DNA of 64,000 nt, taken from the NCBI GenBank assembly GCA_027492795.1, contig JAPUEB010000007.1, positions 1 to 64,000 on the forward strand, in the 5' to 3' direction. Within the stretch, counting starts at the first letter, position 1, and the number at the start of each line of letters is the position of its first letter. The notes below the pieces were generated by a model. The model was not told where the DNA came from and did not search any database. It saw only the letters and a list, made by a program, of their open reading frames with translations. The translations under genes and the position numbers were made by a program. This DNA is from Chryseobacterium sp. GTDB taxonomy: Bacteria; Bacteroidota; Bacteroidia; Flavobacteriales; Weeksellaceae. Of the stretch, positions 34,419 to 63,348 are shown piece after piece.

Positions 34419-35936
34419 TCAATGCAGAAAATGTCTCATTCCCGTCAACATCATTGGAATGCCGTGTTCGTTGGCGGCTTCGATACTTTCTTCGTCGCGC
34501 ATACTTCCGCCCGGTTGAATAAGTGCTTTGATGCCTTCTTTTGCACAAAAATCTACCACATCACGGAACGGGAAAAACGCGTCGGAAGCGAGAACCAAAT
34601 CGCCGGAAAATTTCTCCTTCGCTCTTTGCACCGCTTGTTCTGTTGCCCAAATTCTGTTCACTTGTCCACCACCAATTCCTAATGCCTGAATTCCGTTGGA
34701 AACAACGATGGCGTTGGATTTTACATATTTTACTACTCTTTGAGCAAATACTAATGCTTTTTTCTGTTCTTCGGTTGGTTGGAAAACAGTAACGGTTTTG
34801 ATGTCTTCTGAAAATTGATTGTCATTGTCTTGTACCAACATTCCGCCATCGATTTTTACCCAAGTTTGTTGGTCGGAAACCTGATTTTTGATTTTTATAA
34901 TTCTGAGGTTTTTCTTTTTTCTTAAAATTTCCAAAGCGTACTCATCAAAATCAGTTGCCATTACAATTTCTAGAAATGTTTTGTTGAGTTCTTCTGCTGT
35001 GGCTGCATCTACTTTATAATTCATTGCGATAATGCCGCCGAAAATGGAAACAGGGTCGCATTCAAAGGTTTTTTTGTAGGTTTCCAAAGCGGAAGTTCCT
35101 ATCGCAACGCCGCAAGGTGTGGAATGTTTTACCGCACAACAAGCCATTTCATTTTTAAATTCGTTCACGACTTTCCAACATAAATCCATATCGCGAAGAT
35201 TGTTGAAAGAGAGTTCTTTTCCGCCTAAAATTTCAAAATCTTTCATCGCGCCGTTTTCAAACGTGGAAACGTAATACGCGGCGCTTTGATGCGGGTTTTC
35301 ACCATAACGTAAGTCGGAAACTTTTTTATAGGAAGCGTTGAGATACGTTGGATATTCTTCTTCCAACAACATTTTTGAAATCGCAGCGTCGTAAGCCGAC
35401 GTTAAATTGAATACTTTTCCTGCTAACTTTTTACGGGTTTCTATAGTAGAATTTCCGGTTTCTGAAATTTCATTTTGAATTTTTTGATAATCTTCTACAT
35501 CCGTAATTACCGTTACTGAATTGAAATTTTTCGCTGCAGAACGCAACATGGAAGGTCCGCCAATATCGATGAACTCTACTTTTTCGTCCAATGAAATATT
35601 TTTGTTCACGTTTTCAAAAAATGGATAAAGATTGACGATAACCATATCAATCAGTCCAATTCCGTGTTCTTGAACGGTTTTCATATGTTCTTCGTTGTCG
35701 CGAACCGCGAGAAGTCCGCCGTGAACTTTTGGGTGCAACGTTTTCACGCGACCGTCCAACATTTCAGGGAAATTCGTGATTTCATCAATCTGAATTGGGC
35801 TTAAACCTGCTTCTTTCAGATGTTTGAACGTTCCGCCTGTGGAAATAAGTTCGTAATTGTTTTCCTCTAAAAATTTTGCAAATTCTGTAAGTCCGGATTT
35901 ATCGGAAACAGAGATTAATGCACGTTTTTTTGACAT
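34419..35936 (-). CDS. purH: Bifunctional AICAR transformylase / IMP cyclohydrolase
   Basis: 505 aa, catalyses the last two steps to IMP. The N-terminal MGS-like cyclohydrolase domain has [26 protein letters not shown] and [21 protein letters not shown]. The C-terminal transformylase domain has [14 protein letters not shown], the [11 protein letters not shown] loop with the catalytic Lys-His, FGGIIAMN, and C-terminal [15 protein letters not shown]. Length is normal. The TGCA repeat separates it from purD and the DUF559 cassette separates it from purN. Confidence 0.97.
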
Positions 35937-35973: not shown

Positions 35974-36033
35974 TTCCCCTCTTTTTTAAAGAGGGGTGGC
36001 AAAATTTTCTTAAAGAAAATTTTGACGGGGTGT
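35974..36033. repeat. Left inverted repeat of the DUF559 cassette
   Basis: Two hairpins: CCCCTCTTTTTTAAAGAGGGG-type (TTCCCCTC at 35974 to GAGGGG at 35996), then GTGGC, an AAAATTTTC/GAAAATTTT stem and ACGGGGTGT ending at 36033. It is the inverse of the right repeat apart from a longer second stem. Confidence 0.85.
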
Positions 36034-36041
36034 TTTTTAGT

Positions 36042-36458
36042 TTACGAAAAATGACTGATAATATAATCCTCTAATTCTTTCATCACATTTCTCAAATCAT
36101 TTTTCACTCTAAAATCAGATATTTTGAAAATTTTCAACTCTAAAGACTTTAAAAACTCTTCTCTTTTTTCGTCGTATTCTTCTTTATCTTCATGGCTTAA
36201 ACCATATATTTCAATGACTAAACCAATTGATTTAACATAAAAATCAACAATATAATTTCCTATAATCCTTTGTCTGTCAAAATCAATTCTATGAAACTCT
36301 TTATTTCTGACCTGTTTCCAAAATATAACTTCAGATAAAATGTAGCCTTTTCTTAAACTTCTAGACCTCTGCAACAGTTCTTTATTTTTAGGAAGAGTAT
36401 CAATCTTTCTCCTAAAAATTTCAATACCATGAATATGAGTTAAAATTTTCCTTTCCAT
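36042..36458 (-). CDS. DUF559 endonuclease-like protein
   Basis: 138 aa. The DUF559/Vsr-like PD-(D/E)XK pattern is clear: LSEVIFWKQVRNKEF (E43), FDRQRIIGNYIVDFYV (Q63, D72) and LVIEIYGLSHEDKEEYDEKREEFL (E83, H89), then VMKELEDYI. D72 and E83 could bind the catalytic metal. Position 85 is tyrosine where most relatives have aspartate (ELDG), so activity is uncertain. The gene is framed 13 nt upstream and 8 nt downstream by inverted two-hairpin repeats, and lies in the purine block to which it is unrelated. Likely a selfish or domesticated nuclease; function unproven. Confidence 0.85.
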   Translation of the reverse strand: MERKILTHIHGIEIFRRKIDTLPKNKELLQRSRSLRKGYILSEVIFWKQVRNKEFHRIDFDRQRIIGNYIVDFYVKSIGLVIEIYGLSHEDKEEYDEKREEFLKSLELKIFKISDFRVKNDLRNVMKELEDYIISHFS

Positions 36459-36471
36459 AAAATGAAATTAC

Positions 36472-36510
36472 ACACCCCGTCCTTCGGACACCCCTCTTTT
36501 TAGAGGGGAA
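36472..36510. repeat. Right inverted repeat of the DUF559 cassette
   Basis: ACACCCCGTCCTTCGGAC, then ACCCCTCTTTTTAGAGGGG, ending GAA at 36510. Its TTA (36500-36502) is the purN stop codon and its outer part encodes the final residues (IPL) of PurN. Confidence 0.85.
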
Positions 36511-37069
36511 TATTGAGAGCCAAATTTATTGCCTTCGGAAAAATATGGTATTCAATTTGATGAACTTTTTCAGCCAAAGTTTCGGGAGTTTGATTTTCTT
36601 CTACTTTTACCTTTCCCTGTAAAATAATTTCGCCTTCATCAATTCCTGTTGTTACGTAGTGAACCGTTGCTCCACTCTCCTTTTCTCCGGCTTCCAAAAC
36701 GGCATTGTGAACATTCATTCCCCACATTCCGAATCCGCCAAATTTGGGTAAAAGTGAGGGGTGAATATTGATAATTTTTCCTTGATACTTTTCACAAAAT
36801 TCATTGCTTAAAATGGATAAAAATCCTGCGAGAACAATTAAATCAACATTTTCAGGAAGTATTTTTTCTAAATTTTCTGAAAACGATTTTCCGCGTTTTA
36901 TTAATTGATTTAGAATTCCTGCGTTTTCTGCACGTTGAAGTCCGTAGCAGTCGCGGTCTGCAACAACGAGGGAAATTTTTGCGTTGGAAATTTCGCCATT
37001 ATCAATACAATCGATGATGCGCTGAAGATTGGTTCCGAAACCGCTTACTAAAACTACAATTTTCTTCAT
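36500..37069 (-). CDS. purN: Phosphoribosylglycinamide formyltransferase
   Basis: 189 aa, transfers a formyl group from 10-formyltetrahydrofolate to GAR. Visible: VLVSGFGTNLQRIIDCID (phosphate-binding), VADRDCYGLQRA, VDLIVLAGFLSILS, catalytic NIHPSLLPKFGG (N, H) and HYVTTGIDEGEIILQ with the catalytic aspartate. The C-terminus ends HIFPKAINLALNIPL, and its last codons and stop lie in the right repeat of the DUF559 cassette, so the natural end was probably replaced by insertion; the catalytic core is intact. Confidence 0.95.
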   Translation of the reverse strand: MKKIVVLVSGFGTNLQRIIDCIDNGEISNAKISLVVADRDCYGLQRAENAGILNQLIKRGKSFSENLEKILPENVDLIVLAGFLSILSNEFCEKYQGKIINIHPSLLPKFGGFGMWGMNVHNAVLEAGEKESGATVHYVTTGIDEGEIILQGKVKVEENQTPETLAEKVHQIEYHIFPKAINLALNIPL

Positions 37070-44229: not shown

Positions 44230-44301
44230 TTCCCCAAACCTAAAGGGTGGAAAAAAATCAATTTACTCCCTTTAGGGTCGGGGAATATAAATTGATTTTC
44301 G
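44230..44301. repeat. CCCTAAAGGG-type inverted repeat, copy 1
   Basis: TCCCCAAACCTAAAGGGTGG pairs with CCCTTTAGGGTCGGGGAA across ATCAATTT. A second copy is at 63250-63348. Confidence 0.75.
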
Positions 44302-63249: not shown

Positions 63250-63348
63250 TTCCCCAACCCTAAAGGGAGGAAATTGATTTTCTTCGCTCCCTTTTTTATA
63301 CTGAGCTTGTCGAAGTAAGGGTTGGGAAAAACGAAGAAAATTAATTTC
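63250..63348. repeat. CCCTAAAGGG-type repeat, copy 2 with nested insertion
   Basis: TTCCCCAACCCTAAAGGGAGG and AATTGATTTTC match copy 1. The right arm (AGGGTTGGG) is separated by ACTGAGCTTGTCGAAGT, itself a sequence often dispersed in bacterial genomes. Confidence 0.7.

Follow-up and report, generated by a model that had tools for sequence, protein, structure and literature searches.

A DUF559 nuclease gene between inverted hairpin repeats at the purN–purH junction of Chryseobacterium sp.: a probable old copy of a palindrome-plus-nuclease element

Introduction

In REP/RAYT systems (REPtrons), where GTAG REPs are accompanied by Y1 HUH transposases, there is usually one enzyme gene per genome situated between inverted palindromes, and many dispersed gene-less palindromes track that gene. 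Palindromic elements of Rickettsia are inserted in frame in protein genes. A 2013 survey of GTAG and CGTC REPs (PMC3733652), in which these RPEs are named, reports that the CGTC REPs, including dRS3 of Neisseria and RPE-4/6 of Rickettsia, have no dedicated transposase and are unassociated with transposase genes.

On the side of the enzymes, EDxHD homing endonucleases have been described (PMC3943268), and a Caulobacter DUF559 protein is treated as a Vsr-like repair nuclease in PMC12907096. DUF559 is also reported together with a transposase at recombination hotspots of Legionella. Among the papers naming DUF559 that we surveyed, none was seen to connect this domain with repeats.

Here we describe a DUF559 gene with its flanking repeats at 35974–36510 of a 64,000-nt stretch of Chryseobacterium sp. 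DNA (the window). The locus resembles a REPtron in that an enzyme gene lies between inverted palindromes of a dispersed family, of which one solo copy is present in this genome, and in that gene-less palindromes track the gene among related genomes. It differs in that the enzyme is a DUF559 protein of the Vsr/EDxHD fold rather than an HUH (Y1) transposase, and Y1 genes occur in the same genomes without these repeats.

Results

Organization of the purN–purH locus

The DUF559 gene (36042–36458, minus strand, 138 aa) is situated between purN upstream (36500–37069) and the purH open reading frame downstream (34419–35936), all three being on the minus strand. On the 3' side of the gene, a two-hairpin repeat on the plus strand (35974–36033) runs from the hairpin CCCCTCTTTTTTAAAGAGGGG (CCCCTC..GAGGGG) through a second stem, CAAAATTTTCTT/AAGAAAATTTTG (AAAATTTTC..GAAAATTTT), to GACGGGGTGT. 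On the 5' side the repeat is inverted (36470–36510, minus strand) and comprises CCCCTCTAAAAAGAGGGG, the short stem GTCCGAAGGAC (GTCC/GGAC) and GGGGTGTGT, so that both follow a common plan of a CCCCTC..GAGGGG hairpin, a second stem and ACGGGGTGT. The start codon lies 13 nt from one repeat and the stop codon 8 nt from the other, and there is no transposase next to the gene. These coordinates agree to the base with the first-pass annotation, which had placed the 138-aa frame exactly between the inverted repeats, given the same spacings, seen no adjacent transposase and noted that the gene splits purN from purH. The purN stop codon (36500–36502, in ATT CCC CTC TAA) is part of the right hairpin, and the last codons of purN also derive from the repeat, which has therefore taken the place of the gene's original end.

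Shuffles of the window give an expectation of 0.00 for the CCCCTCTT..GAGGGG hairpin, which the actual sequence shows at the two repeats only; folded as single-stranded DNA, the left repeat gives z=-6.2 and the right z=-3.3. Chance hairpins or ordinary terminators are ruled out by these shuffles together with the control ORFs described below.

Like CGTC REPs, these repeats are short palindromes, partly intragenic, and CCCCGTC stands beside the second stem of the window repeat, while another locus (L048) has CGTC-ATTCCGGC..GCCGGAAT. Against the features of that group (CGTC tag, 8–9 bp stem, 4–5 nt loop, CCA tail), CCCCGTC is present here but the stem and the tail are variable; most copies depart from the group in stem, loop and tail, and a first GC hairpin is added. 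We regard this likeness as a resemblance in sequence rather than as proven membership.

The encoded protein and its active site

The protein matches PF04480 at 79.7 bits (cut-off 20.6; E=1.8e-22), and an AlphaFold model built from an alignment has a pLDDT of 85.6. The best PDB matches of the model are 3hrl (NGO0050; Z 15.2), 3r3p (I-Bth0305I; Z 13.2) and 1cw0 (Vsr; Z 10.8), and a profile search retrieves 3hrl at E=3e-31 and 3r3p at E=4e-7. The predicted fold thus upholds the earlier placement of DUF559 in the Vsr/PD-(D/E)XK nuclease group. The fold is shared with I-Bth0305I and Vsr, but the window protein differs in being 138 aa long, without the long DNA-binding region, outside any group I intron and between palindromes. 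The same fold search returns domains of mitoribosome proteins of Toxoplasma and Tetrahymena and the RAP module of human FASTKD4 (Z 9–11). NGO0050 of Neisseria gonorrhoeae, YcjD of E. coli and other annotated 'endonuclease domain-containing proteins' belong to the same family as the window protein; a sampled N. gonorrhoeae locus (L236) is flanked on each side by CCCTCTCCC-type repeats, while ycjD has a palindrome on one side only.

Residue 85 of the window copy (position 84 of the alignment, whose row lacks the start Met) is Tyr, encoded by TAT at 36204–36206 on the minus strand, where Asp is found in 44/44 diverse homologues and in all 57 scorable class-2 proteins, the clade to which this copy belongs. 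E83, D72, H89 and D96 are kept, so that the set of conserved acidic residues is broken at this one place (D85Y). In the tree its closest neighbour, L070, likewise shows an altered motif (IEIND). Judged by D85Y, which falls at a near-invariant acidic position, the window copy has probably lost its active site and is probably a dead remnant.

Repeats in the genome of the host

The genome is 2.96 Mb in 46 contigs and contains GACGGGGTGT three times, at the two window repeats and in one complete solo two-hairpin repeat on contig C25. This low number fits a probably dead window copy. A profile search gives three PF04480 matches; besides the window gene they are a 245-aa frame on contig C34, the weakest, which looks Vsr-like, and a DUF559 domain in frame inside leuS. 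In this leuS (G000:C35:78665-78979, locus L004) the domain stands directly ahead of VFTTRPDT, and TMPGWAGSS is preceded by another translated palindrome, a solo one (SPLERVGERI).

There are also 45 strict copies of a CTCCCTTTAGGG / CCCTTTAGGG-type repeat, and despite these no standalone gene of the class-1 clade was found in this genome. Palindromes of the CCCTTTAGGG type occur in the window at 44232–44283 and 63252–63267, including one head-to-head pair. Y1 transposase genes number seven.

Association of gene and repeat in the host family

PF04480 is matched in 169 of 296 genomes of the host family, from which 80 DUF559 loci were fetched. The clade of the window copy, designated class 2, carries the motif DFDRQ. 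Hairpins are present on both sides of 56/64 class-2 genes compared with 6/474 control ORFs of the same contigs; the remaining eight have a hairpin on one side, and these exceptions include hairpins that have degenerated and genes interrupted by a stop or a frameshift. A generic hairpin test over the family gives 45/83 against 7/387 (p=3e-32).

Dispersed copies of the two-hairpin pattern occur in 181 of the 296 genomes, with up to 39 per genome and also where the gene is absent, while a reversed control pattern is almost never found across the same genomes. Within one genus of 149 genomes, with two of unknown gene state left out of the comparison, the median number of dispersed repeats is 12 where the gene is present and 2 where it is absent (p=1e-8), a correlation that, like the others between gene and repeat given here, ignores phylogeny; counter-examples in this genus are at least 19 genomes with 8 or more repeats yet no class-2 gene. 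A search for the repeat in the genome and its relatives, and a count of how often DUF559 lies between inverted copies, had both been proposed beforehand; the outcome of each supports the pairing of gene and repeat.

Three nuclease clades, three palindrome families

On a wider count, class 2 is found with the two-hairpin repeat at 68/72 genes. Class 1 (FRRQHP..YIADFYC) occurs among CCCTTTAGGG palindromes at 24 of 28 genes and class 3 domains lie between CCCTCTCC palindromes in 27 of 65 cases, with one crossing in all among these three pairings. Both class 1 and class 2 are present in some genomes (G236, L041 and L120; G255, L028 and L094), where each is accompanied by its own repeat. The CTCCCTTTAGGG repeats are present in 17/18 genomes with class 1 and in 33/278 without, and for two of the three clades the presence of the gene is predictive of repeat number.

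A DUF559 gene is often found among arrays of its own repeat. Separately, we observed palindromes in tandem arrays at G097:C1:2187117-2191207, G038:C1:2265669-2266004, G088:C1:66517-67407 and G129:C10:25739-26932, with periods of about 264, 106, 174 and 150–167 nt respectively, the last adjoining a class-1 gene.

Signs of mobility

The purN–purH insert is present in the window genome, G018 and G023, while the junction in many other genera of this family measures 11 to about 200 nt and holds no insert; in G025, whose genus also includes filled junctions, the gap is 52 nt. A comparison of relatives for empty junctions had been proposed, and most other genera of the family provide them. A situation in which all such gaps were filled and DUF559 kept no company with these repeats elsewhere, which would have spoken against the idea, is not what we see. 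The copies at filled junctions form one clade (support 100/99) that extends over several genera, so that the window copy is an inherited element and not a fresh insertion, and given D85Y it is probably dead.

At hutU the gene is found at either end, and the 5' junction holds both orientations, as would be expected from recombination between inverted repeats or from more than one insertion of the element. By the tree, the gene at the purN–purH and hutU sites is mostly inherited in place. The two orientations at the hutU 5' junction are seen in L086-L123 as against L090, L095, L117 and L119.

In genome G372 two copies of a complete element at two loci (L322/L323) are 86% identical in DNA and share their ends (GTCCCCTCTCCAGAGGGGAC..GGGGTGTGTG / CACACCCC..GAGAGGGGAC), the alignment stopping just outside them. 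The same genome has an internally deleted remnant, and the inner motif GGGGTGTGT of these elements is the one found in the window. There is no clear target duplication at L322/L323 or in a scan of solo repeats in the fetched loci, no clean case of a recent empty site of a solo repeat among these loci, and close strains showed no new insertion relative to one another.

In-frame insertions of class 3 domains occur in LeuRS (two sites), IleRS, MetH, a UvrD/AddA-like helicase, methylmalonyl-CoA mutase, RecG, an Lhr-like helicase, urocanate hydratase, CinA, AroC and others, and N-terminal fusions join such a domain to IspF, guanylate kinase, a 23S methyltransferase or acetylglutamate kinase, the enzyme names being read from the sequences without a family search. 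On either side of these domains lie translated palindromes, for example LTPTLSKGEG and SPLERVGVRI. At LeuRS site 2, L206 has no insert, L207 carries a solo palindrome, and L182, L208 and L218 hold the full insert; L182 and L208 are both empty at site 1. In metH (L017, G115:C25:332099-332428) the domain lies in frame between the cap and the B12-binding domain and palindromes bracket it. Rickettsia palindromic elements are similarly translated inside essential proteins, but some of the in-frame inserts here additionally have a nuclease domain enclosed by two palindromes.

Wider distribution

In the Bacteroidota, DUF559 occurs in 92 of 140 sampled genera at up to 10 matches per genome, and the generic hairpin test gives 13/52 against 9/456 (p=8e-9). 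In other phyla, where the few loci come from plasmid-collection records, support is one-sided (7/11 against 10/45; p=0.012), and the two-sided test on the same loci is not significant (2/11 against 1/45). Similar palindromes were seen at a few loci in Sinorhizobium, Azospirillum, Sphingomonas, Qipengyuania, Neisseria, Deinococcus and Synechocystis. The pairing of DUF559 with palindromes extends beyond flavobacteria, and related elements insert inside genes. DUF559 matches only 2 of 50,697 records from phages and 43 of 72,556 from plasmids, and a phage or plasmid gene is rejected on these counts. An Rfam search returned nothing above chance.

Discussion

The family is best read, by analogy, as a palindrome-plus-nuclease mobile element having a REP/RAYT-like anatomy and a homing-endonuclease-like enzyme. 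We consider it probable, though with appreciable doubt, that 35974–36510 is an old, probably inactive copy of such an element, consisting of two inverted palindromic ends and one DUF559 nuclease gene, whose active kin are mobile. The first-pass annotation had wavered between a selfish element and a remnant, and each term finds a place: the pairing and the dispersed repeats make the family look like a selfish element, while D85Y and membership of an old clade make this copy look like a remnant.

A plausible course of events is that the nuclease of active members would recognise its own palindrome family, as duplex, extruded cruciform or single-stranded hairpin, and would break the DNA at the ends of the element or at the target, after which host replication or repair would copy the element into a new site. 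The gene-less palindromes would then be non-autonomous derivatives mobilised in trans, in the way that RAYTs move REPs. We infer each of these steps, namely palindrome recognition, cutting, copying and mobilisation in trans.

Homing rather than transposition is a rather unlikely account, in which the nuclease cuts solo palindromes that have spread otherwise and repair from a full copy makes them gene-bearing. That the closest relative to have been characterised is a homing endonuclease, I-Bth0305I, that LeuRS site 2 occurs empty, solo and full, and that the gene is often amid arrays of its own repeat would all suit it, but by itself homing leaves unexplained both the multiplication of solo repeats and the tracking of the gene by repeat number, and the two G372 copies, with their shared ends and an alignment that stops just beyond them, also speak against it. 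A domesticated Vsr-like repair nuclease, with the hairpins serving as terminators or genome landmarks, seems improbable: it is in keeping with conserved sites such as hutU and with Caulobacter VsrA, a protein with a DUF559 domain that has an effect on DNA damage in cells without a methyltransferase (PMC12907096), but would not lead one to expect in-frame copies in many unrelated enzymes, nor genomes with up to 10 matches and bracketing repeats specific to each clade.

It is very improbable that the palindromes are moved by another enzyme, for example an IS200/RAYT transposase, with DUF559 riding as a passenger between two of them. Y1 transposases are indeed available in 226/296 genomes of the family, including that of the window, but the two-hairpin repeat is found at 0/30 Y1 loci against 68/72 class-2 DUF559 genes. 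That each of three nuclease clades keeps its own palindrome is unexpected of a passenger and argues against such a role. RAYTs were considered as the mobiliser and rejected, none of the 30 IS200/RAYT loci being associated with the two-hairpin repeat.

Returning to the palindrome-plus-nuclease element, DUF559 genes and their matching hairpin repeats appear to be a widespread, previously unlinked kind of selfish element. We suggest, tentatively and with more doubt than confidence, that several widespread palindrome families, possibly including some of CGTC-REP type that were reported without an enzyme, have in DUF559 nucleases the mobilisers they seemed to lack, and that these represent a transposing class in which a Vsr-fold nuclease substitutes for a known transposase, capable of in-frame insertion into essential proteins.

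Small palindromic repeats fill many bacterial genomes, and whole families of them are without a named spreading enzyme (PMC3733652). If our reading is true, a nuclease family of 'unknown function' would be paired one-to-one with such repeats and the origin of the repeats would become testable; the odd extra domains of LeuRS, IleRS and other essential enzymes would be accounted for as well, and a compact pair of nuclease and hairpin would be available for study.
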